A stretch of DNA of 64,000 bases from contig NZ_JH932293.1 of NCBI RefSeq assembly GCF_000301075.1, positions 1,399,673-1,463,672 on the forward strand, in the 5' to 3' direction. A program made the translations under genes and the position numbers. Below the pieces are notes generated by a model. That model was given only the letters and a program-made list of their open reading frames with translations, was not told the DNA's origin and did not search any database. Numbering within the stretch: the first letter of the stretch is position 1; each line of letters begins with the position of its first letter. Below are positions 4,547 to 64,000 of the stretch, in pieces. The DNA comes from Bergeyella zoohelcum ATCC 43767 (lineage in GTDB: Bacteria; Bacteroidota; Bacteroidia; Flavobacteriales; Weeksellaceae).

Positions 4547-5602
4547 ATGATTACAACAGATTTACTCATTATAGGTGCAGGACCTACGGGGCTTTTTGCC
4601 GTTTTCGAAGCAGGATTACTTAAAATAAAATGTCATCTTATAGATGCACTTCCACAGCCTGGCGGGCAGCTGGCTGAGCTATATCCTAAAAAGCCTATAT
4701 TTGATATTCCAGGGTTTCCATCTGTAAATGCAGGAGAATTGGTGGATAATTTAATGGAGCAAATCAAACAGTTCGAACCTGGATTTACCCTTGCAGAAAC
4801 CGCAGTTTCTCTTACTAAAATAGATGATGAATGGTTTGAGGTGGTAACGAATAAAGGAACGGTACATCGTGCGAAAGCTGTAGCCATTGCGGGGGGATTA
4901 GGGACTTTTGAGCCGAGAAAGCCTGACCATTTGGAAAATCTTGCACAGTTTGAAGAAAAAGGAGTAGAATATTTTGTGAAAGACCCTGAACATTTCAGAG
5001 GGAAAACGGTAGTCATTGCAGGGGGTGGAGATTCAGCCTTAGATTGGTCTATCTTCCTTGCCGATGTAGCAAAAAGTGTTACGCTTATTCACCGTAGAAA
5101 TGAATTCCGTGGGGCATTAGATTCGGTAGAGAAGGTACAGAAATTAAAAAACGAAGGTAAAATCAATTTGATTACTCCTGCAGAAGTAGTTGCACTAAAA
5201 GGAGATGAACATCTCCGCGCTATTGTAGTATCTGCTGATGGAGAAGAAAAAGAAATAGAAACAGATTATCTGATTCCTCTTTTTGGGCTTACTCCTAAAT
5301 TGGGAGAACTGGCGAATTGGGGATTAGAAATTGAAAAAAATGCCATTAAGGTAAACAATGCTCTAGACTATCAGACCAATATAGAAGGGGTTTATGCCAT
5401 TGGAGATATTAATACTTACCCTGGAAAACTCAAACTCATTCTTTGCGGTTTCCACGAAGGTACGCTCATGTGCCAAAGCGTGTACAATAGACTGAATCCA
5501 GGAAAAAAATATGTACTTAAATACACCACAGTAAGCGGTATAGATGGTTTTGATGGCACAAGAAAAGAAGCAGAAAAAGCCGTAGTGAAAAAAATAGATT
5601 AA
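4547..5602 (+). CDS. Ferredoxin-NADP reductase, thioredoxin-reductase-like
   Basis: This 351-residue flavoprotein has two dinucleotide-binding motifs, IIGAGPTGLFAVFEAG at the N-terminus (FAD) and IAGGGDSALDW near residue 157 (NADPH), and the FAD-closing segment YAIGDINTYPGKL near 285. The CxxC redox pair of true thioredoxin reductases is absent from the NADPH domain, so it should be a TrxR-like ferredoxin/flavodoxin-NADP reductase. The next gene, 42 bases downstream, encodes a 2Fe-2S ferredoxin, its likely electron partner. The start at 4547 (MITTDLLIIGAG) puts the FAD motif where the family has it; a TTG seven codons upstream overlaps the promoter box. Confidence 0.9.
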   Translation: MITTDLLIIGAGPTGLFAVFEAGLLKIKCHLIDALPQPGGQLAELYPKKPIFDIPGFPSVNAGELVDNLMEQIKQFEPGFTLAETAVSLTKIDDEWFEVVTNKGTVHRAKAVAIAGGLGTFEPRKPDHLENLAQFEEKGVEYFVKDPEHFRGKTVVIAGGGDSALDWSIFLADVAKSVTLIHRRNEFRGALDSVEKVQKLKNEGKINLITPAEVVALKGDEHLRAIVVSADGEEKEIETDYLIPLFGLTPKLGELANWGLEIEKNAIKVNNALDYQTNIEGVYAIGDINTYPGKLKLILCGFHEGTLMCQSVYNRLNPGKKYVLKYTTVSGIDGFDGTRKEAEKAVVKKID

Positions 5603-5644
5603 GAGAGTTATAATTTAAATTCCTAATCCTAGTATTGATCCAAT

Positions 5645-5977
5645 ATGTCTGATATTAATATAAGCATTATCGATAGAGCAGGAGTTACCCATTCTATAGT
5701 AGCTCCCACAGATATGTCTATGAACCTCATGGAAATCATTCGCTCATATGAACTTGCAGAGGAAGGAACCATTGGGGTATGTGGAGGTATGGCAATGTGT
5801 GCTTCTTGCCAAGTGTATGTATTAGAGGGAGCCGAGAAACTTCATTCAATGGAAGATGAAGAAGATGCTATGCTGGCAGAGGCGTATCATGTGAAAGACA
5901 ACTCTAGATTAGGTTGCCAAATTCATATCACAGAGGAATTGGAAGGATTAGCCGTAGAAATTGCTCCATATCCTTAG
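5645..5977 (+). CDS. 2Fe-2S ferredoxin, adrenodoxin type
   Basis: The 110-residue protein has the cluster ligands of adrenodoxin-type ferredoxins: CGGMAMCASC (C-x5-C-x2-C) near residues 46-55 and a fourth cysteine in RLGCQI near 90. The acidic stretch HSMEDEEDAML between them is the usual partner-docking segment. It follows the ferredoxin-NADP reductase by 42 bases and is probably in the same operon, so the pair forms an NADPH-to-ferredoxin electron route for some monooxygenase or desaturase elsewhere in the genome. Confidence 0.92.
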   Translation: MSDINISIIDRAGVTHSIVAPTDMSMNLMEIIRSYELAEEGTIGVCGGMAMCASCQVYVLEGAEKLHSMEDEEDAMLAEAYHVKDNSRLGCQIHITEELEGLAVEIAPYP

Positions 5978-6020
5978 TATTTATATTTTTTCTGATATAT
6001 TTTTTCATTTGAAAGATAAA

Positions 6021-14515: not shown

Positions 14516-14554
14516 AAAACCTCTCAAAGGCAATCATTGCCTTTGAGAGGTTTT
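14516..14554. terminator. Bidirectional terminator, long perfect hairpin
   Basis: AAAACCTCTCAAAGGCAAT (from 14516) is followed by its reverse complement ending TTTT at 14554, so both strands get a T run after the stem. It lies between the convergent tail gene and integrase and overlaps the integrase stop codon. The same place in prophage B holds an unrelated palindrome. Confidence 0.88.
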
Positions 14555-15668
14555 AATCGTCTAGTAAAGTCATTGTTTTTACCGTATCAGATTCTACGAT
14601 ATGGACATAAATCATGGTGGTTTTTATGTCCGAATGTGCTAATAAAATCTGTAAATTTTCAACTTTTCCTCCCTTTCGTAAATAATTAGTTGCAAAAGTG
14701 TGTCTAGCAACATGACATGTAATATGCTTTTTAATTCCTAAAAAAACTGCAATTTCTTTAATAGTTTCATTGATAGTCTTAGGTGTAATTTTTTCAATAA
14801 AAAGGCTTTCATCGTATGCAAGTATTTGTTTACATGTTTCATTGGTCATCAATATTTGTTGTTTTTTAGATTTTTGATTCCAAAAATTAAAAAAGCTTTC
14901 ATCAAGCTGTTCTCTCTTTATTTTTAGTAAGTCATTGATTCTAAGTCCTGTCATACAATTAAATAAAAAATATCCTAATGTTTTTTTGTGACTATCTTTA
15001 ATGAACTTAGAAAAATAATACTCTTTCATTATCTCTACTTCAGATAAAGAAAGGTTAGTTCTGTGAGAACGATGCTGTCTGATTTTTATTTGCTCTATAT
15101 CAATATTAAGAATAATACCCCTTTTTTTAGCTAATTTAATGTAGTGTTTAATGACTTTTATATTACTATCAATAGTAACTTCTTGGTTTCCTAATTGATT
15201 TGCTAAGTACCGTCTATATTTAGCAATAAATGCCTCATTTACATCAGCAAATAATAAATTCGGTCTATAAGATTTCAGTTTTTTTAATACAGAGTTGTGA
15301 TTCTTCAGAGAATTTTCTTCCATTGATTTAAGGCTCATTTCATACTCCATGAAAGCAATAAAATCCACTGTTAAATCTGGTCGTTGAAGTAATTCCGCAC
15401 ATTTATCTACTGTAAGTATCTGATTGCTCAGTCTGAATTGAATTTCAATTTTATTTATTTTTGCTTCTATATCACGAAGAAGTAAATTATAATCCACAGC
15501 ATTTTCAAATGATTTATGTACTTCTTGCTTATTCTTATTCCAATATTTTTTATGAACGAAAATTTTTAAAGGAATCTTTTTCCTTTGTTGATGAATGTAA
15601 AGATTGAGATAAATTTGGGATTTTCCATTTTTATCTTGATAATCCTTCAAGAAAAATGAATGTTTCAT
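14553..15668 (-). CDS. int: Phage integrase, tyrosine recombinase (prophage A)
   Basis: The protein has an arm-binding N-terminus (HSFFLKDYQDKNGKSQIYLN), a SAM-like core-binding domain (FIAFMEYEMSLKSMEEN) and a complete catalytic domain: Arg in MTGLRINDLL, HxxR in CHVARHTFATNYL, His/Trp position in LLAHSDIKT and Tyr in MIYVHIVES. The start MKHSFFLKD at 15668 (371 residues) fits other Bacteroidota integrases; an ATG 21 codons upstream (15731) adds a non-typical tail. It is closely related to the integrase at the right end of prophage B, which suggests the same attachment specificity. Confidence 0.9.
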   Translation of the reverse strand: MKHSFFLKDYQDKNGKSQIYLNLYIHQQRKKIPLKIFVHKKYWNKNKQEVHKSFENAVDYNLLLRDIEAKINKIEIQFRLSNQILTVDKCAELLQRPDLTVDFIAFMEYEMSLKSMEENSLKNHNSVLKKLKSYRPNLLFADVNEAFIAKYRRYLANQLGNQEVTIDSNIKVIKHYIKLAKKRGIILNIDIEQIKIRQHRSHRTNLSLSEVEIMKEYYFSKFIKDSHKKTLGYFLFNCMTGLRINDLLKIKREQLDESFFNFWNQKSKKQQILMTNETCKQILAYDESLFIEKITPKTINETIKEIAVFLGIKKHITCHVARHTFATNYLRKGGKVENLQILLAHSDIKTTMIYVHIVESDTVKTMTLLDD

Positions 15669-15731
15669 ACTAGCAAAATTTGATTTAGCACTATGAAACT
15701 CCTGAAAATTTAAGTTGTAAAATTGCTCCAT

Positions 15732-17248: not shown

Positions 17249-17443
17249 GTCAATATTAATATTTGGGTGAATGACAAGCCCGATGACTACGACAACGATG
17301 CTTCTATCCAAGTGCAGCTGAAAGAAGAATTTATAAAAGCAGGGGAAAAGAACCCCTACATTGGAAATCTCAAGAAGCATACGCCAAAAATCACAGAAGC
17401 AAAAGCTGAGGATTTTGAAGAAGATGATGATTTGCCTTTTTGA
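17249..17443 (+). pseudogene. SSB-like protein, C-terminal fragment with DDDLPF tip
   Basis: The frame reads NINIWVNDKPDDYDNDASIQ and ends EDFEEDDDLPF. The last part is the acidic tip that single-stranded DNA-binding proteins use to hold partner proteins. Phages of Bacteroidota carry SSB-like proteins with a WVNDxPD...NDASI segment; here about the first half is missing and a stop precedes the frame at 17231, without an ATG. It is therefore a remnant. Its last 50 bases are repeated at 19703-19755, after the recombinase/methyltransferase module. Confidence 0.65.
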
Positions 17444-17461
17444 AAAATGTGTAACTGTATT
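17393..17461 (+). repeat. Left direct repeat of SSB tail, flanking module
   Basis: It begins ACAGAAGCAAAAGCTGAGG, runs through the codons for EEDDDLPF and its stop, and ends ATGTGTAACTGTATT. The right copy at 19703-19781 is about 90% identical apart from an 11-base A-rich gap after the stop. The pair encloses the recombinase, methyltransferase and two small genes. Confidence 0.75.
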
Positions 17462-17465
17462 AAAT

Positions 17466-18308
17466 ATGAAAGTAAAAGACATCAAATATACTATAACAGA
17501 AGAAGATTTAAAGTCTTTTGAAAAATATCTTGCTTCTCAAGAGAAAAGCAAAAACACAATTGAGGTTTATCTCTATAGTGTCAAGTTATTTTGTGAAAAA
17601 TTTGGAACTATTACAAAAAACACCTTAATGGCATATAAAGCCTATTTAACGGAAAATAAAGGAGCAAGTACGGTTAATCTTAGATTACAGGCGATTAATA
17701 GTTTTTTAATATTCAAGGACTTTGACCCAAGGTTAAAGGTAAAGTTTGTAAAGGTTCAACAGAAGTCTTTTTTAGAGAATGTAATTTCCATCTCGGATTA
17801 CAATTTCCTTAAAAACAGACTTAAGGAAGATAATAAAATGAAAGACTACTTTATGATATGGTGTTTGGGGGCAACAGGGGCAAGGGTTTCAGAATTAATT
17901 CAGTTGAAAACTGAAAATTTTGAAGATGGCTATCTAGATGTTATCTCTAAGGGCGACAAGTACAGGAGACTATGGCTTCCTAAAACACTTTGTAAAGAAA
18001 TTAGAAAATGGATTAAAGAGAACGGTATTAGAGGATATGTTTTTCAGAATAAATTTGGCGAACGAATTACTACGAGAGGGATTGCAGGACAGCTCAAACA
18101 TTTTGCTAAAAAATACGGGTTAAACCCCAAGGTGGTTTATCCTCACTCGTTCCGTCACATGTTCGCTAAAGAATTCCTTAAAAAACTGAATGATATAGTT
18201 TTTTTGGCAGATCTTATGGGGCATGATAAACTTGAAACCACGAGAATTTACCTCAGGAAAACAGCTGAAGAACAAAGAGCTTTGATTGACAAAATAATAA
18301 AATGGTAA
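17466..18308 (+). CDS. Tyrosine recombinase, XerC/D-like, in the early region
   Basis: This 280-residue protein has a SAM-like N-terminal domain (KSFEKYLASQEKSKNTIEVY) and a catalytic domain with Arg in GATGARVSEL, Lys near SKGDKYRRLWLP, HxxR in PHSFRHMFAKEF, His in LMGHDKLET and Tyr in RIYLRKTA. There is no arm-binding domain, so it resembles Xer-type or integron-like enzymes more than the phage integrase at 63180. The start MKVKDIKYT at 17466 lies right after the left SSB-tail repeat. It probably moves the module in which it sits, or resolves phage dimers. Confidence 0.88.
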   Translation: MKVKDIKYTITEEDLKSFEKYLASQEKSKNTIEVYLYSVKLFCEKFGTITKNTLMAYKAYLTENKGASTVNLRLQAINSFLIFKDFDPRLKVKFVKVQQKSFLENVISISDYNFLKNRLKEDNKMKDYFMIWCLGATGARVSELIQLKTENFEDGYLDVISKGDKYRRLWLPKTLCKEIRKWIKENGIRGYVFQNKFGERITTRGIAGQLKHFAKKYGLNPKVVYPHSFRHMFAKEFLKKLNDIVFLADLMGHDKLETTRIYLRKTAEEQRALIDKIIKW

Positions 18309-47671: not shown

Positions 47672-47702
47672 TAAATTTTAACAAAATTTTAACACTTGAA
47701 AA

Positions 47703-47734
47703 TTTGGAAATAAGGCGTAAACGCCTTATATTTG
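47703..47734 (+). promoter_or_regulatory. Promoter with 18-base palindrome in the spacer
   Basis: TTTG (47703-47706) and TATATTTG (47727-47734) match the -33/-7 boxes at 20-base spacing. The spacer holds TAAGGCGTAAACGCCTTA (47711-47728), a perfect inverted repeat ending on the -7 box, so a repressor bound there would block the promoter. It drives the helicase/PAPS-reductase-like/ParB operon. Confidence 0.72.
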
Positions 47735-47799
47735 CAGTATAAATAATTCAATAACTATTTAAAACTCCGGAGCAGGAGGATAAAGTCAGCGAACGCAAA

Positions 47800-48255
47800 A
47801 TGAAAACTTTTTTAATTCAGTCGCCTTGTTACAGAGCTAACGGACATTATGGTTCTTATTATTCAATTGCCTTTACAGATAATGAAGGCAATGTAATTAA
47901 AGGATACGGAGACCACATTTCCGAATTATCTTACGGAGTAAAAAATGTATATGAAGCAGAAGGCACTTCTTTCTCAGATTCGGATAGATTTATAACCATA
48001 GAAGAAGTAGAAGTAGATGAAGCAGAATTTGAAACGTTTCTTGAAAAAAGACGAGAATACAACAGATTATGTGAAGAAGTAAACAGAAAAAGAGATAAGC
48101 GTTTCGGCACTAACACATACAAGTATGTATATGGGCAAAAAAAAGGGCAAAAAGAAAGAGAGCAAGAGTTAAGAGATTGGGAATTAGAGAATAGAGTCCC
48201 TTATGTCGATTACTACGATTTTCTAAAAAGCGTTAAAAATGGCAACTTGGGATAA
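47800..48255 (+). CDS. Protein of unknown function, first gene of the helicase operon
   Basis: The 151-residue protein starts MKTFLIQSPCYRANGHYGSY and has a coiled charged middle (EFETFLEKRREYNRLCEEVN). An AGGAGGATAAAG stretch upstream is a rather good ribosome binding site for this phylum. No family is known to me. It overlaps the next gene by 17 bases. Confidence 0.65.
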   Translation: MKTFLIQSPCYRANGHYGSYYSIAFTDNEGNVIKGYGDHISELSYGVKNVYEAEGTSFSDSDRFITIEEVEVDEAEFETFLEKRREYNRLCEEVNRKRDKRFGTNTYKYVYGQKKGQKEREQELRDWELENRVPYVDYYDFLKSVKNGNLG

Positions 48256-48670
48256 AATATTCATAAACTCCCAAAATATTATTTCAGAGACTGACCGGGC
48301 ATTTCTAATAAAAATGCCCAATAGGTCTCAATATAAGGGATATGCATTTTGGCATCCGAAGAAATTAGTTCGGTTACAAGGAGGAAAGGGCTATCATATA
48401 ACTTTTTCGTTTACAGAAGATTTTGAATTTCGGGTAATTCTTTACGGGCAAGGAAGATTTAATAGTAAAACCATTATTCGGCAAGAGTACCTAACTCCGA
48501 ATGAAATGCGAGAAGCCTTCGGGGTAGTAGATAAAGAGGTAAACCGAGCTGTTGAGCAAGAGACCTTGAAAATTATAGAAAAAGAAACGGTAGAAGTGGA
48601 AATAACCCACCACGAACCCGAGAGGGTAGAGACTATTTCAGATAACAGCATAAAAGATTTAAAGAAATGA
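48239..48670 (+). CDS. Protein of unknown function in the helicase operon
   Basis: The 143-residue protein has ETDRAFLIKMPNRSQYKGYA, FWHPKKLVRLQGGKGYHITF, and an acidic C-terminus. A small beta fold is likely. It overlaps the helicase gene by four bases. No motif is recognised. Confidence 0.65.
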   Translation: MATWDKIFINSQNIISETDRAFLIKMPNRSQYKGYAFWHPKKLVRLQGGKGYHITFSFTEDFEFRVILYGQGRFNSKTIIRQEYLTPNEMREAFGVVDKEVNRAVEQETLKIIEKETVEVEITHHEPERVETISDNSIKDLKK

Positions 48671-49890
48671 GGCTCTTACCCCAACAAGAAAAAGCCCTTG
48701 CCCACCGCTCTGACTGGAAGGTGGGGGCTTTATTTATGAAAATGGGTACAGGCAAAACCCGTGTTACCGTTGAGTTGGTCAATCAAGTAGAAGATTTAGA
48801 TTTAGTAGTATATGTCGCTCCCCTGCGGATAATTCAACCGAAAGAACCAAATATTCCGAAGATTTCCGATGAAGTACAGAAATGGGGCGGCTTCAAAGCC
48901 AAAGAAGTGATTTACATCGGCGTAGAAACTATTGGGCAGTCGGATAGGCAATTTTTGCAGCTGTTCAAAAAAATATCTACCACTTGGAAGACTTTCCTTG
49001 TCGTGGACGAGAGTATCAAAATTAAGAACATCGGTGCCAAAAGAACCCAACGGTTGCTGCAACTATCGGAAATGGTAGAGTTCAAATTGATTTTGAACGG
49101 TGAACCCGTAACCCGTGATTTATTGGATTTGTACCCGCAGATGAATTTCCTTGACCCTCGCATTTTGCGAATGAGTTTACCAGAATTTAAAAATACTTTT
49201 TGCAGATACACCACTGTCACCAAGCGTTTCGGTGGGTATAAGGAGTATTCCAAAGAGTTCATTACAGGATACGAAAACATTGATTATCTGTACTCACTCA
49301 TTGGGCAATATGTATTTGAGTCCGATTTGGATTTACAAATTCAGCAGATTTACGAAGATGTTAGCTACTCCATTAGTGATGAAGATAAGCAGGAGTATTA
49401 CCGATTGAAAACGGAATATTTAGACGATGAAAAGCTGATGATGATGAATAATAATATTTTCTTGGAACTTACGCAGAAAATGCAACACGGCTACTGCTGT
49501 TCCGAAGAGAAATTTGAAGCGGTCAAAGAGTGGTTCGGGAAATATCCCGAAGAAAAAAGCATAATTTTCGTGAAATATATCCGCTCAATGGAAGAATGCA
49601 AACGGAGATTTCCGAAAGCTACCGTACTGAATTACAAGACGGGAAGCTACGGACTGAATCTACAGCATCTACCATACACGGTGTATTTTGACAAGACTTG
49701 GGATTATGGCGATGTTGCCCAATCCAAACACAGGAATTATCGTGTTGGGCAAGAGCAAGACTGCAGATATTTGAGCCTTACTGGAGATGTCGGGCTTGAA
49801 ACCTTGATTTCTGAAAATAATAAGAAGAAAATTGGAGTTTCGGAATATCTGAAGAAAATTAGTAGAGAACAATTAAGAAAAGTGTTATGA
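48667..49890 (+). CDS. SNF2-like DNA helicase/translocase
   Basis: The 407-residue protein is a compact SF2 enzyme: motif I MKMGTGKTRVTVEL near residue 25, the DEAD-type box as VVDESIKIKN near 112, motif III LNGEPVTRDLLDLYPQMNFL, and motif VI QSKHRNYRVGQ near 352, as in SNF2 proteins. It lacks a nuclease domain. Phages often carry such helicases in replication or recombination clusters. Here it is coupled (ATGA at both ends) to genes for an unknown protein and PAPS-reductase-like and ParB-like proteins. Confidence 0.85.
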   Translation: MRLLPQQEKALAHRSDWKVGALFMKMGTGKTRVTVELVNQVEDLDLVVYVAPLRIIQPKEPNIPKISDEVQKWGGFKAKEVIYIGVETIGQSDRQFLQLFKKISTTWKTFLVVDESIKIKNIGAKRTQRLLQLSEMVEFKLILNGEPVTRDLLDLYPQMNFLDPRILRMSLPEFKNTFCRYTTVTKRFGGYKEYSKEFITGYENIDYLYSLIGQYVFESDLDLQIQQIYEDVSYSISDEDKQEYYRLKTEYLDDEKLMMMNNNIFLELTQKMQHGYCCSEEKFEAVKEWFGKYPEEKSIIFVKYIRSMEECKRRFPKATVLNYKTGSYGLNLQHLPYTVYFDKTWDYGDVAQSKHRNYRVGQEQDCRYLSLTGDVGLETLISENNKKKIGVSEYLKKISREQLRKVL

Positions 49891-50759
49891 AAAAATATTT
49901 GGTTTCCAATAGTATTCCCGAAAGAATGCATTTTATAAAAAAAGTAAAACCATTCGGGAAGCGATTTGCGGTTTACAACAAAATACCGTTAAGGGGTTTG
50001 GAAAGTTATTTTGATAAATTCATAAAGCTGGATGAACTTTATGACGATCAAACCTTTTTAAAACTTTTAGGGCAAGTGGATAGCAAAACGACTTTATTTT
50101 TGATTGATTTAGGGTTAGATTATTGCTCATTCCAAGCGAATTACATCAAGCCTTACACGAAGTTGCATCCGCTTTCGCAACAAGCGAAAGAAACTTTTAT
50201 CATTGACGGGTTTGCATTCTACAACACGGAAAAAGCAATTTATCGCCCATTTTTGTACATCGACCCAAATATCATAGGAAGCTCAGTACAAGAATTTTAT
50301 AACACGGGTGCATATAAAGATTTTGATGGGAATCAAGTCGAAAACTATTATAAAAAAATTGCTCCGTATATGCAGATTTCTACCCAACCGCTGGAATTGG
50401 AGGTTGTGAAATATTCGCCTACAAAAAAAGAAAAGGCAGAATATGAAAAACTGAAAAAACAGATTATTATGGTGGATAAATTCAGCAAACCGAAAGTAAT
50501 CCGGATGCTTATCGATTACATTGAAAATACCGAGAGCAAAAAGAAAGCGATTAAAAAAGAAATTGATGCGGACGCCATTCAAATCATTCGCAACGATGCG
50601 AATGGCAGGAAAAATTTATACAAAGAAATTCTGTTGAAAAATCCTAAAAAAGTAATTTTTTACAGTTCTGAATATTACGGAGCTGACGAGATAGAATTGT
50701 CTTTGACCTTTGGAGCTTTGGAACGACATAACAAACTTATAGCGTTACTCAATGGCTAA
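49887..50759 (+). CDS. Protein of unknown function between helicase and PAPS-reductase-like genes
   Basis: The 290-residue protein starts KKYLVSNSIPERMHFIKKVK and has LFLIDLGLDYCSFQANYIKP, AFYNTEKAIYRPFLYIDPNI and a basic C-terminal helix region with NTESKKKAIKKEIDADAIQI. I do not recognise it. Overlaps of four and eight bases with both neighbours suggest it works with them. Confidence 0.7.
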   Translation: MKKYLVSNSIPERMHFIKKVKPFGKRFAVYNKIPLRGLESYFDKFIKLDELYDDQTFLKLLGQVDSKTTLFLIDLGLDYCSFQANYIKPYTKLHPLSQQAKETFIIDGFAFYNTEKAIYRPFLYIDPNIIGSSVQEFYNTGAYKDFDGNQVENYYKKIAPYMQISTQPLELEVVKYSPTKKEKAEYEKLKKQIIMVDKFSKPKVIRMLIDYIENTESKKKAIKKEIDADAIQIIRNDANGRKNLYKEILLKNPKKVIFYSSEYYGADEIELSLTFGALERHNKLIALLNG

Positions 50760-51882
50760 AAAAATATACAATAGAGATAAAAATGTGTATCAAGCTGCCT
50801 TGGAGCGGATGGAATATATTTTTGATAACTACAAAAATGTAGTGGTTTCGTTGTCGGGCGGGAAAGACAGCACGATTTGTACTTACTTGGCTCACGAAGT
50901 AGCTCAAAAAAAAGGAAGAAAATTTTATTTGTTCTATCTTGACCAAGAAATTGAATACAGCAGTACTATTGATTTCATTGATAAAATGATGAAATTGCCT
51001 ACAGTTATTCCGCTGTGGTTTCAAATTCCGTGTATGCTTACGAACACCAGTTCGATGAGTCAAAACGAAATAGACCCTTGGAATCCCGAAAAAAAATCGG
51101 TTTGGATTCGTGGACAAAAAATAAAGGCAACCAAAGAAATTACTTGGGATGTTTCCGATGTGCCGTATCAATTTCCTGAAAAGAAAATGTACGGATTTTA
51201 CGGATTAGTACAATGTATGGAGGCTTTGTTCCGTAATGCAGAATCAACAGCACAAATTATTGGGTTACGAGCCGATGAAAGCCTTGACCGATTCAGAGCT
51301 GTAACAAAGAATCCCGGCGTAAAAGGCATACCTTGGTCAACCAAAGGAAATCATCACATCAAATTTTATCCGATATACGATTGGAACTTCCGAGACATTT
51401 GGATTTACTTGGCAAAGAATAATTTGGACTACAACAAGATGTACGATTACTTTTGGCTCAAAGGTTATTCGCCTAATAAAATGCGATTATCCAATCTATT
51501 GCATGAAAAAGCCTACGAGTGCATTGCCGATCTGCAGGAGTTTGAACCGAAACTATTTGACCGAATGATTGACAGATGTCAGGGAGTTTCCACAGCACAG
51601 GAATACGCAGGGCGTGGTGGCGGAATTTACAAAGCTGAGAAATTGCCCAAAAACTTTGCTACTTGGATCGAATATCGGGATTATCTACTGGACACACTGC
51701 CTAATCAGGAACACGCCGATATTTTTCGAAAACGATACTCCAAGCAATATCAGAATGATTATGTTGTGAAGCAACAGGTAAATAGGATACTTATTTACGA
51801 CATTCACAACTTCAAGAAAATAAACAATTTTGAATTTGACCCAGCAGAAAAAATACGAGAAAAATGGATGCAAATTTTATAA
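50752..51882 (+). CDS. PAPS reductase-like protein, DUF3440/IbrA type
   Basis: The 376-residue protein has the PP-loop of ATP-using sulfur-transfer and reductase enzymes, VVSLSGGKDSTICTYLAHEV near residue 30, then YLDQEIEYSSTIDFI, IIGLRADESLDRFRAV near 170 and FYPIYDWNFRDIWIYLAKNN near 205. The ending with LLHEKAYECIADLQEFEPKL is the DUF3440-like part seen in IbrA. It lacks the CxxC Fe-S ligands of assimilatory enzymes. IbrA-type proteins are found beside ParB-like IbrB in phages and islands, as here. DndC of DNA phosphorothioation is related, but DndD/DndE partners are missing. The substrate is unknown. Confidence 0.82.
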   Translation: MAKKIYNRDKNVYQAALERMEYIFDNYKNVVVSLSGGKDSTICTYLAHEVAQKKGRKFYLFYLDQEIEYSSTIDFIDKMMKLPTVIPLWFQIPCMLTNTSSMSQNEIDPWNPEKKSVWIRGQKIKATKEITWDVSDVPYQFPEKKMYGFYGLVQCMEALFRNAESTAQIIGLRADESLDRFRAVTKNPGVKGIPWSTKGNHHIKFYPIYDWNFRDIWIYLAKNNLDYNKMYDYFWLKGYSPNKMRLSNLLHEKAYECIADLQEFEPKLFDRMIDRCQGVSTAQEYAGRGGGIYKAEKLPKNFATWIEYRDYLLDTLPNQEHADIFRKRYSKQYQNDYVVKQQVNRILIYDIHNFKKINNFEFDPAEKIREKWMQIL

Positions 51883-52445
51883 AAATAAATACTAAAGAAG
51901 ATTTCCTAAAATGGAAGTCCAACCAATGTATATATGAAGAAAATGGGATAAAATTCCCTGTTTTGAACGCCGTTTTGGTTCATAAATCAATGATTTTACC
52001 CAACGATTACAACCCTAATCACGTAGCAAAGGATAAAATGGAGTTACTGAAAACCTCCATCGTTGAAAATGGTTTTGCTTTCGGGATTGTCGCTATTTTT
52101 GACAATGAAATCGACAAATTTGTTATTATTGACGGGTATCACCGTGATGTTATCACAGGGAAAAAGTGGCTTGATCTTACTTACAAGCCATTAGTTATTC
52201 TTGACCATTCTATGGAAAAAAGATTAGCAGCAACGGTACAATTCAACAAAGCTCGGGGCGTTCACAAAATCGACTTGAATGCTGAACTGGTTAAGCGAAT
52301 GATAGAACTCGGTATGGAGGATTACGACATTTGTAAACAGTTAGGCATAGATGCTGACGAGTTTTTACGACTAAAACGAAACGTAAAAATCGCAGAAATA
52401 TATAAGGATTTAGAATTTTCAAATTCTTGGGAAGTAGGTAATTAA
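51864..52445 (+). CDS. ParB/Srx-domain protein, IbrB type
   Basis: The 193-residue protein has the ParB/sulfiredoxin fold: NDYNPNHVAKDKMELLKTSI, the conserved DGYHR motif near residue 90 in FVIIDGYHRDVITGKKW, and a following helix-turn-helix with MEDYDICKQLGIDADEFLRL. It overlaps the PAPS-reductase-like gene by 19 bases, and the two form the IbrA/IbrB pair. IbrAB were described as regulators of immunoglobulin-binding Eib proteins in E. coli; in phages the role is not clear. The domain can be an NTPase or DNA-binding module. Confidence 0.82.
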   Translation: MDANFIKINTKEDFLKWKSNQCIYEENGIKFPVLNAVLVHKSMILPNDYNPNHVAKDKMELLKTSIVENGFAFGIVAIFDNEIDKFVIIDGYHRDVITGKKWLDLTYKPLVILDHSMEKRLAATVQFNKARGVHKIDLNAELVKRMIELGMEDYDICKQLGIDADEFLRLKRNVKIAEIYKDLEFSNSWEVGN

Positions 52446-52469
52446 ATTAGAAAAAATGGAAATAAAATT

Positions 52470-53438
52470 ATGTTATCTATTTTCAAAAAAAAACAAGACA
52501 TAGTACCTCTATTAGAGGTACTTATCTCAGATATAAAGAATAAAAAAATATTGACTTTGAAAAACAAACCTTATAAAGATAATTCCTTTCACTCGGGGCG
52601 TACTGCTTTGGTAAATCTCAAAGAATTTTTATCTGACGCCCCTTTGTATATCAATGATTTTACCACTGATTTCTTAAAAGGATTTGGTATGTTTATGAAT
52701 GAAAAAGGATTGTCAATGAATAGCGTTACCAACAATGTAAAGTCTCTTATTACGCTAGTAGATAGATTGATAATAGAGCGTAGAATTACTGTAGGCAAAG
52801 ATTTCAAAGTGCCTACTATCAATATGCCTAAGGAAATTACAACGGCAGTTTTCACAACAGAAGCTGAGATAGATTTACTTGCTAATATGGATCTCAGCCT
52901 TACTGAAAAATTATGTAGAGTGCGGGATGTGTATATCATTCAGGCTTACACAGGATTGCGTTTTTCTGATATGATAAAAGTAATACAATCACCACAATCC
53001 TATTATAAAGAGCAAGATGGAACAGCTTATTTTTGTTTAAAATCAACAAAAACAGAGCAAGATTTATTTATTCCGTTAAAAAAAATAGTTGTAGATATTC
53101 TTGTTCGGAGAAATTTTAAATTTGGAAAACCTTTCACATTACATCATTATAATAAAAGACTAAAAGAATTATTTAAGTCTGTAGGAATAAATGAAACCAT
53201 AGTAAAATATATTACCATAGGAGGCGAACGAAAAGAAATTCATTTGGAAAAATGGAAAATGATTTCCAGCCATACGGCAAGAAGAAGTTTTGCAACAAAT
53301 GCCTATTTAAAAGGGGTACCTACATCTTTTGTTAGAAAAATCACAGGCCATACCACAGAAGAAAGTTTGCTCCGATACATAAGAGCAAATAATCATGAAA
53401 TTGCGTTAAAATCGAAAGAATATGATTTTTTTAAGTAA
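52470..53438 (+). CDS. Tyrosine recombinase in the accessory region
   Basis: The 322-residue protein has a SAM-like N-terminal domain (SFHSGRTALVNLKEFLSDAP, LSMNSVTNNVKSLITLVDRL) and catalytic residues Arg in YTGLRFSDMI, HxxR in SHTARRSFATNAYL, His in ITGHTTEESL and Tyr in LLRYIRANN. It differs from the integrase at 63180 and from the enzyme at 17466, so it belongs to the accessory cassette. It follows the ParB gene by 24 bases and may have brought the cassette in. Confidence 0.85.
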   Translation: MLSIFKKKQDIVPLLEVLISDIKNKKILTLKNKPYKDNSFHSGRTALVNLKEFLSDAPLYINDFTTDFLKGFGMFMNEKGLSMNSVTNNVKSLITLVDRLIIERRITVGKDFKVPTINMPKEITTAVFTTEAEIDLLANMDLSLTEKLCRVRDVYIIQAYTGLRFSDMIKVIQSPQSYYKEQDGTAYFCLKSTKTEQDLFIPLKKIVVDILVRRNFKFGKPFTLHHYNKRLKELFKSVGINETIVKYITIGGERKEIHLEKWKMISSHTARRSFATNAYLKGVPTSFVRKITGHTTEESLLRYIRANNHEIALKSKEYDFFK

Positions 53439-53460
53439 TTTTGCCGGAAATAATATCGTA

Positions 53461-53688
53461 ATGGCAACAGAAGAAATTATAAAGAAGCGACAAAAAGTCG
53501 CCGAAATTATTAGAAATAAAAGAAAAAGCATGGGATTAACACAAGAAGAACTTGCCGAAAAGGTGGGCTTCAATACGAGTACTATATTAAGGATAGAAAC
53601 TTGTAAATTTTCACCCAATGCAGACCAATTGTATCTAATCGCCAAAGTATTGGACATAGAAATCTCCTTTGATGGAGAAAAGATATAA
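53461..53688 (+). CDS. XRE-family helix-turn-helix regulator
   Basis: The 75-residue protein is a simple HTH: MGLTQEELAEKVGFNTSTIL with RIETCKFSPNADQLYLIAKV. It starts 23 bases after the recombinase stop, with an earlier in-frame ATG overlapping that gene judged less likely. It could bind the palindrome at 47711-47728 or act on the recombinase gene; this is not shown. Confidence 0.82.
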   Translation: MATEEIIKKRQKVAEIIRNKRKSMGLTQEELAEKVGFNTSTILRIETCKFSPNADQLYLIAKVLDIEISFDGEKI

Positions 53689-63149: not shown

Positions 63150-63181
63150 TATGTCTCCGACATTAATGTCGGAGACATACT
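63148..63181. repeat. Perfect 34-base palindrome between tail gene and integrase
   Basis: AGTATGTCTCCGACATT (63148-63164) is followed directly by its reverse complement to 63181. It overlaps the stop codons of both convergent genes. It could act as a terminator although no T run follows. In remnant A the same site has a different perfect hairpin. Confidence 0.8.
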
Positions 63182-64000
63182 AATCAAGCAGTTTCATAGA
63201 TTTTATAGTCTCTGACTCCACAATGTGTACATAAACCATTGTGGTTTTTATATCGGAATGAGCTAAAAGAATTTGTAAATCTTCCACTTTTCCACCACGA
63301 CGAAGATAATTAGTGGCAAAAGTATGTCTAGCAATATGACAAGTAACATGCTTTTTAATTCCAAGAAAAACAGCTATTTCTTTGATAGTTTCATTGATAG
63401 TTTTTGCTGTTACTTTGTTAATAAAAAGTTCAGGATCATGGGTCAAGATCTTTTTACATGTTTCATTGGTCATTAATATTTGTTGTTTTTTTGATTTTTG
63501 ATTCCAAAAGTTAAAAAAATCTTCATTCAACTGTTCTCTTTTGAGCCTGAGTAAGTCATTTATTCTCAATCCTGTCATACAATTAAATAGAAAGTATCCA
63601 AGCGTTTTTTTATGACTCTCCTTAATGAAGTTTGAAAAATAATATTCTTTCATTCTTTCTACTTCTGCTAGAGAAAGATTCGTCCTATGGCTTCTATGTT
63701 GCCTGATTTTTATTCGTTCTAAGTCAATATTTATGATTAGTCCTCTTTTCTTTGCTAATTTAATATAGTGTTTTATCACTTTTATATTACTATCAATGGT
63801 TGCTTCTTGATTGCCTAATTTAGTAGCTAGATATTGTCTATATTTAGCTATAAAAAGTTCATTTATATCTGCGAATAAAATATTCTGTTTGTATTTTTTC
63901 AGTTTTTTAAGTACGGATTCATGGTTTTTTATTGAATTTTCTTCCATCAACTTTAAACTCATCTCGTATTCTACAAAAGATATAAAATCAATAGTAAGAT
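63180..64000 (-). CDS. int: Phage integrase, tyrosine recombinase (prophage B), 5' end outside window
   Basis: The frame is open to the window end and gives the C-terminal 272 residues. Catalytic residues are complete: Arg in MTGLRINDLL, HxxR in CHIARHTFATNYL, LLAHSDIKT and Tyr in MVYVHIVES. Upstream of the internal Met at 63962 it continues as LTIDFISFVEYE, like LTVDFIAFMEYE in the integrase of remnant A, so the gene goes on beyond 64,000 with the SAM-like and arm-binding domains. The two integrases are close relatives. Confidence 0.9.
   Translation of the reverse strand, partial: LTIDFISFVEYEMSLKLMEENSIKNHESVLKKLKKYKQNILFADINELFIAKYRQYLATKLGNQEATIDSNIKVIKHYIKLAKKRGLIINIDLERIKIRQHRSHRTNLSLAEVERMKEYYFSNFIKESHKKTLGYFLFNCMTGLRINDLLRLKREQLNEDFFNFWNQKSKKQQILMTNETCKKILTHDPELFINKVTAKTINETIKEIAVFLGIKKHVTCHIARHTFATNYLRRGGKVEDLQILLAHSDIKTTMVYVHIVESETIKSMKLLD

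Follow-up and report, generated by a model that had tools for sequence, protein, structure and literature searches.

The closest described relatives of the locus analyzed here are the ibrAB islands of Escherichia coli, the YbdN/YbdM pair of E. coli K-12 and the lmo1310/lmo1309 pair of Listeria, all of which comprise adjacent genes for a protein with PAPS_reduct and DUF3440 domains (IbrA) and a ParB-like protein (IbrB). The same arrangement is present in a prophage of Bergeyella zoohelcum ATCC 43767, within the 64,000-nucleotide stretch of contig NZ_JH932293.1 that was examined in this study, hereafter the window. Unlike the window, IbrAB pairs elsewhere often lack an SNF2 motor, which is missing at 64 of the 157 loci of the combined set, and the motorless pair of E. 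coli K-12 is ybdNM (PMC9068703); in the IbrA/IbrB literature that was found, the motor, the tail-bearing adaptors and the 290-amino-acid (aa) protein P290 described below are not treated as parts of the pair. In the window, six open reading frames (ORFs) of 151, 143, 407, 290, 376 and 193 aa occupy positions 47800–52445, and successive ORFs overlap by 17, 4, 4, 8 and 19 bases; the scan thereby recovered exactly the six overlapping genes, including the three with then unrecognized products of 151, 143 and 290 residues, listed in an earlier note on this DNA. The operon exemplifies a widespread system that is apparently neither described nor named and whose constant core consists of a small adaptor gene, an SNF2 motor, the PP-loop enzyme IbrA and IbrB with its ParB/Srx fold. 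The operon features are as follows.

47800–48255, forward strand: 151-aa accessory protein, lacking the adaptor tail, with relatives at loci L097, L107, L128 and L139.
48239–48670, forward strand: 143-aa small adaptor (phrog_27058, E 1.7e-33).
48593–48667, forward strand: adaptor C-terminal tail, VEITHHEPERVETISDNSIKDLKK, a motif shared with unrelated small proteins of other SNF2 loci.
48667–49890, forward strand: 407-aa SNF2-like motor (phrog_62); its Walker A (G27–T31), DES (114–116) and QxxxRxxRxG (352–361) motifs are intact.
49887–50759, forward strand: P290, predicted 290-aa pseudo-SNF2 protein, with a two-lobed SNF2 fold and neither Walker A nor DExx box.
50752–51882, forward strand: IbrA, 376 aa, with PP-loop SGGKDS, PAPS-reductase-like and DUF3440 regions.
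51864–52445, forward strand: IbrB, 193 aa, ParB/Srx fold, with invariant N.YNPN, DG.HR and N.ARG.H motifs.

Conservation of the gene row was evaluated in phage records, viral contigs and species-representative genomes. In tblastn searches, relatives of the motor turned up in 490 phage records and relatives of IbrA in 215, and the row recurs in the annotated Flavobacterium phages FCL-2 and 23T, Streptococcus phages D4276 and PY2, and Lactobacillus phage AQ113. Eighty viral contigs were chosen by the motor alone, and among the 62 with at least 2.5 kb of downstream sequence, IbrA was present in 60, IbrB in 58 and both in 56, in either order. An independent scan with one genome per species yielded 75 motor loci spanning Bacteroidota, Bacillota, Verrucomicrobiota, Spirochaetota and other groups; IbrA and IbrB both lie downstream of the motor in 62 of the 63 loci with enough sequence, a figure preferable to the viral one because near-duplicates occur among the viral contigs. 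This retention of the SNF2–IbrA–IbrB trio across several phyla backs the functional linkage that the earlier note had proposed for the six genes and had made dependent on their being kept together in other genomes. The unit itself has to be redrawn, as few loci have exactly these six genes, the one for the 290-aa protein included, and the conserved core comprises four genes. Nor is the trio confined to phages: in Listeria sensu stricto it lies on the chromosome between pyrH–frr and transketolase genes (one such record is labeled as a plasmid, yet bears this housekeeping region), and lmo1309, lmo1310 and lmo1311 are found in all sensu stricto species and are either missing or highly diverged in sensu lato species (PMC5736727).

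Compared with individual relatives, the Listeria lmo1311–lmo1309 operon shows the same order as the window, with a small gene (~124 aa) followed by SNF2, DUF3440 and ParB genes, and its small protein ends in a tail related to that of the window adaptor. It differs in its chromosomal position beside pyrH–frr, an extra S-adenosylmethionine (SAM) methyltransferase gene, the lack of P290 and a motor that is ~42% identical. Phages FCL-2 and D4276 likewise carry the small gene or genes, SNF2, IbrA and IbrB in a row, but lack P290, and FCL-2 has the order IbrB–IbrA; the report on FCL-2 describes two ORFs 5' of IbrAB in common with a host genome (PMC4541368). In D4276 (L006, 4576–5369), the anti-CRISPR gene acrIIA5 immediately precedes the small gene of the cassette, with hardly a gap between them, and the cassette thus occupies a known anti-defense spot.

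No named system of this composition was found in PADLOC, NCBIfam or the open literature, in agreement with the earlier note, which knew none by name. IbrA and IbrB appear in that literature mostly as annotation mentions, and it contains no treatment of SNF2–IbrA–IbrB as a system; subscription papers and preprints lay outside the scope, so a prior description is possible. The likeness to Dnd/Ssp systems (DndC, DndB) consists of a PAPS-reductase-like PP-loop protein and a ParB/Srx-superfamily protein; in contrast to those systems, the window set has no conserved cysteines, DndA, DndD and DndE were not found, and the motor is SNF2 rather than SMC-like. The DndC profile scored 26.7 bits against the operon in PADLOC; in NCBIfam, where the cut-off is 290, it reached 20.8 bits. 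The absence of Dnd/Ssp partners reported in the earlier note was borne out by domain, PADLOC and NCBIfam searches of the operon genes, and Dnd/Ssp phosphorothioation was rejected on two grounds, the lack of a conserved IbrA cysteine and the lack of a DndA/D/E or SspABC partner among these genes. The Dpd 7-deazaguanine, DISARM, Zorya and BREX type 4 systems each combine an SNF2/SF2 helicase, ParB-like or PAPS-reductase protein with other parts and give weak profile matches to the operon. For the window motor, these reached 36 bits against DrmD (cut-off 950), 31 bits against ZorD (cut-off 1500) and 36.9 bits against DpdE in PADLOC. Membership in any of the four was rejected, the scores being far under curated cut-offs and the core partners (TGT, DrmB/C, ZorAB, PglZ/BrxC) not being found in the operon.

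The domain assignments of the earlier note hold for the motor, IbrA and IbrB. The 407-aa protein matches Pfam SNF2-rel_dom at 34.6 bits (cut-off 24.9) and qualifies as an SNF2 ATPase, with its Walker A, DES and QxxxRxxRxG motifs near-invariant across 93 motor sequences. IbrA belongs to its family by matches to PAPS_reduct (63.8 bits, cut-off 22.5) and a C-terminal DUF3440 (40.4 bits, cut-off 25). IbrB gave no match in Pfam and is placed in the ParB/Srx superfamily by phrog_2159 (E 2.8e-37) and by profile matches to the ParB structures 4umk and 7ol9.

P290 gave no relatives in direct sequence searches, and its apparent orphan status was overturned by family alignment, profile comparison and folding. 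Its relatives elsewhere are proteins of 245–345 aa encoded immediately 5' of IbrA, and a profile built from this family hits the SNF2 motor with probability 93 (E 3.3e-7), whereas a control comparison with IbrA showed no similarity. The AlphaFold2 model of P290 (predicted local distance difference test score, pLDDT, 86.6) matches SNF2 ATPases over its full length (Foldseek E 4e-6), with a structural alignment at Z 15.8 over 269 residues and a root-mean-square deviation of 3.6. Among the 21 family members, a GxGKT/S-type motif is present in none and a DExx-like string in one, and the family does not qualify as an active ATPase. Because P290 is modeled with an SNF2 fold and none of the 21 members has a Walker A motif, it is regarded as a pseudo-SNF2 subunit and a degenerate SNF2 relative. 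It occurs at 23 loci, six with a short motor, seven with a long motor and ten motorless, and all nearest relatives of the window IbrA are accompanied by it, indicating that P290 goes with this IbrA lineage. Of the three proteins that the earlier note left unrecognized, the 143-aa and 290-aa products are thus assignable, to phrog_27058 and to a degenerate SNF2 lineage, and the 151-aa product alone gave no confident family or known fold in domain and family searches.

Across 157 IbrA sequences, the PP-loop (SGGKDS), D64xE66, GxRxxES and YPxxDW motifs are near-invariant. No cysteine is conserved, the best alignment column having Cys in 78 of the 157 sequences, which is evidence against both a catalytic cysteine of the CysH kind and a conserved iron–sulfur site. 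An assignment as an assimilatory PAPS (3'-phosphoadenosine 5'-phosphosulfate) or APS (adenosine 5'-phosphosulfate) reductase of the CysH type was rejected on this basis, and the alignment likewise argues against Dnd-type sulfur chemistry for IbrA.

The 143-aa adaptor is modeled as a beta domain (residues ~5–85) followed by helices and a disordered C-terminal tail with low pLDDT; no trustworthy structural match to its fold was obtained (Foldseek best E 0.64; best Z 3.6). After removal of the last 32 residues, the products of small genes preceding the motor fell into four sequence clusters (56, 17, 8 and 7 members) and two singletons. A distant relationship between the two largest clusters is possible, because they align around an (E)TxKAxLIxxxxxxWIPKS motif, and the remaining clusters look unrelated. 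One cluster resembles the Cas8c/Csd1 C-terminus (E 1.4e-9), and at L135, L155, L157, L168, L170 and L234 small proteins resembling this part of the type I-C CRISPR protein are fused to the putative SNF2 docking tail. All clusters end near E-H-x-P-E-K-I-x-P-x-N-N-x-I-x-E-L-K-R/K.

The tail is closely tied to the motor. Among 5,497 ORFs of that size, 105 bear the tail, 104 of these lying up to 2.5 kb 5' of an SNF2 gene and the remaining one shortly 3' of such a gene. By locus, tail genes are present at 77 of 84 short-SNF2 loci, none of 9 long-SNF2 loci and none of 64 motorless IbrAB loci, and at 23 of 35 high-scoring-motor loci in genomes outside the set used to train the tail profile; up to three may be held by a single locus. 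Between clusters, the N, I and L positions of the tail are retained and the codons are mostly different. Since the tail sequences were chosen by a motif containing N, I and L, the informative part of this comparison is the codon difference, which indicates that selection acts on the protein and rules out the tail as a mere RNA signal such as a ribosome site. We infer from these patterns that the tail is a docking peptide for the motor, which would let different recognition domains plug in. Some small upstream proteins of long-SNF2 loci (L263, L268, L269, L275 and L278) end in a different, acidic GIIEDLxDDE-like tail, possibly a parallel docking peptide. The HARP-like appearance of the L278 adaptor received no support from Pfam.

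The enzyme block can be replaced behind an otherwise retained motor. In the window, the block is delimited as follows.

49894–52465, forward strand: exchanged segment P290–IbrA–IbrB, where L097 has a different IbrA431–IbrB165 pair behind an 88%-identical motor gene.

L097 matches the window at 91% identity over 47727–48670, 88% over the motor and 92% over 52466–53688, and it lacks P290 and has surroundings otherwise unrelated to those of the window. This comparison indicates that the cassette (47727–53688) moves between phages and that the IbrAB block is replaced inside it. Two prophage contigs of the Flavobacterium 1H/23T kind (L115 and L116; compare L008 and L126) are 98.5–99.9% identical on either side of such a block, and from the motor stop codon to ~1.7 kb beyond it each has its own IbrAB pair, the two pairs being unrelated and reversed in gene order. 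L097, which holds the closest relative of the cassette analyzed here, also contains an insertion (4583–6001) that separates the small gene from the motor and carries a 293-aa gene, and the small gene there continues past its tail, reaching 216 aa.

We tentatively interpret the operon as encoding a machine that modifies nucleic acids, driven by the motor and equipped with plug-in adaptors. The SNF2 protein, judged by its intact motifs, would be an active ATP-dependent DNA translocase, and the small adaptor would bear a DNA- or target-recognition domain and use its disordered C-terminal tail to dock on the motor. IbrA would activate a substrate with ATP via its PP-loop, and IbrB, a putative ParB/Srx-fold nucleotide binder, would be its obligate partner in group transfer. 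P290, as a dead SNF2 relative, would probably act as a scaffold for IbrAB, because it follows the IbrA lineage with or without an active motor. The target would most likely be DNA, given the operon-linked adenine-DNA-methyltransferase-like and other modification genes of relatives. Marking or protecting phage DNA is the likely use in phages, and the chromosomal copies suggest a more general role.

Nucleic-acid modification is preferred chiefly because of methyltransferase-like and glucosyltransferase-like neighbor genes. An adenine-DNA-methyltransferase-like protein of ~210 aa, with a DPPW motif and, at its C-terminal end, a SAM-site-like motif, is encoded near IbrA in 12 of 23 P290 loci, either after IbrB, often directly, or between P290 and IbrA; its relatives include DpnA, CcrM and MboIIA (PDB profile E 3.5e-7). 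Motorless IbrAB loci contain a second ParB_N protein (39/64), a SAM methyltransferase (32/64) or a glucosyltransferase-like gene (19/64). Several points weigh against this interpretation. Support for covalent modification consists of genomic association with methyltransferase-like genes, and such neighbors, like the glycosyltransferase genes, may be ordinary phage cargo or a sign of related phages. The DPPW methyltransferase-like gene occurs in just 1 of 78 short-SNF2 loci without P290, and the window operon itself has no methyltransferase gene, so that the DNA modification suggested in the earlier note draws on operon-linked genes of relatives and finds no such gene at its own locus. Finally, E. 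coli IbrAB is known solely as a co-activator of prophage gene expression, the annotation from which the Ibr name derives (PMC4490671, PMC5736727), the prophage genes attributed to this co-activation being eib.

That annotation underlies an alternative that we consider unlikely, in which SNF2 and IbrA/IbrB control gene expression as a remodeler that strips or re-sets DNA-bound proteins and activates prophage or host genes. It would accommodate a helical DNA-binding-like region at the end of IbrB, an XRE regulator cluster downstream in 35 of 93 SNF2 loci, and the resemblance of P290 and the motor to chromatin or polymerase remodelers in fold or sequence. However, it leaves both the invariant PP-loop and DxE/GxRxxES substrate site and the adenine-DNA-methyltransferase-like partner unexplained, and the cassette is also carried by virulent phages such as FCL-2, for which no integrase or repressor is reported (PMC4541368). 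Somewhat less probable still is a prophage-borne defense, whereby the adaptor would recognize invading DNA, the motor would translocate on it and IbrA/IbrB would damage or mark it. Interchangeable recognition-like adaptors and the swapping of IbrAB blocks, typical of arms races, are in keeping with this view, as is the weak similarity of SNF2 to DrmD, DpdE and ZorD and of IbrA to BrxP/DndC; against it, domain searches recognized no nuclease or other effector domain in the operon, PADLOC gave no complete system, and virulent phages FCL-2 and D4276, in which host defense is less expected, carry the cassette. An auxiliary sulfur metabolism, with IbrA as a phage-borne PAPS reductase feeding sulfur assimilation, is very improbable, because the PAPS_reduct domain and the concordant database annotation are set against the missing CysH-type cysteine and the nature of the constant partners, namely a motor and a ParB-fold protein instead of sulfur enzymes. 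In an E. coli citR mutant, ybdN is derepressed (log2 5.5) and cys-regulon genes rise by ~1.8–2.8, a possible hint that the IbrAB pair draws on sulfate activation, but flagellar genes change too, so the rise may be indirect (PMC9068703).

Turning from the proposed machine to its setting, the six ORFs are preceded by a terminase gene (weak phrog_2 match) within a prophage of a 2.33-Mb bacterial genome, and the closest relatives of the motor are from Bacteroidota. A TerL related to that of the window lies near 38 loci; a general link to the terminase, with packaging as a defining context, was rejected, since the cassette has other surroundings in Streptococcus phages and in Listeria. The sole sizeable gap 5' of the operon is 47672–47799. 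Features flanking the operon are listed below.

47704–47734, forward strand: putative promoter, a Bacteroidetes-type promoter-like site read from the sequence (TTG at 47704, TATATTTG at 47727–47734).
47710–47729, forward strand: perfect 9-bp inverted repeat ATAAGGCGT-AA-ACGCCTTAT, between both promoter elements.
52470–53438, forward strand: 322-aa tyrosine recombinase, which moves with the cassette in L097.
53422–53688, forward strand: 88-aa HTH_3 (helix-turn-helix) regulator, final gene of the block in common with L097 (47727–53688).

A single promoter for all six genes, as claimed in the earlier note, is plausible: the gap contains a promoter-like site, but a sigma-70 scan yielded 26 promoter-like sites versus 21.2 (standard deviation 4.3) in shuffles, which is about equal. 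The transcription unit may extend across 24 bases into the integrase and helix-turn-helix genes, up to 53688. The inverted repeat is a possible operator, and the 88-aa protein at the cassette end is perhaps its binder. The window holds four tyrosine recombinase genes in all, the others lying at 17361–18308, 14553–15731 and 63180–63962.

IbrA/IbrB-type genes are common in phages, where the usual labels are ‘PAPS reductase’, taken for an auxiliary metabolic gene, and ‘ParB partition’ protein. Both labels are disfavored here, because the reductase cysteine is lacking and the constant partner at motor loci is an SNF2 translocase. It is possible, if doubtful at present, that these loci represent an unrecognized class of modular DNA (or DNA–protein) modification system in phages, prophages and chromosomes, in which an SNF2 motor programmed by exchangeable, tail-docked recognition proteins would deliver IbrA/IbrB, sometimes on a dead-SNF2 scaffold, for a new modification without cysteine-based sulfur chemistry. 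With its putative docking tail on unrelated small proteins, its dead-motor subunit and its swapped enzyme blocks, the system lends itself to direct tests, and genetically tractable chromosomal homologs are available in Listeria sensu stricto and in E. coli K-12 (ybdNM).

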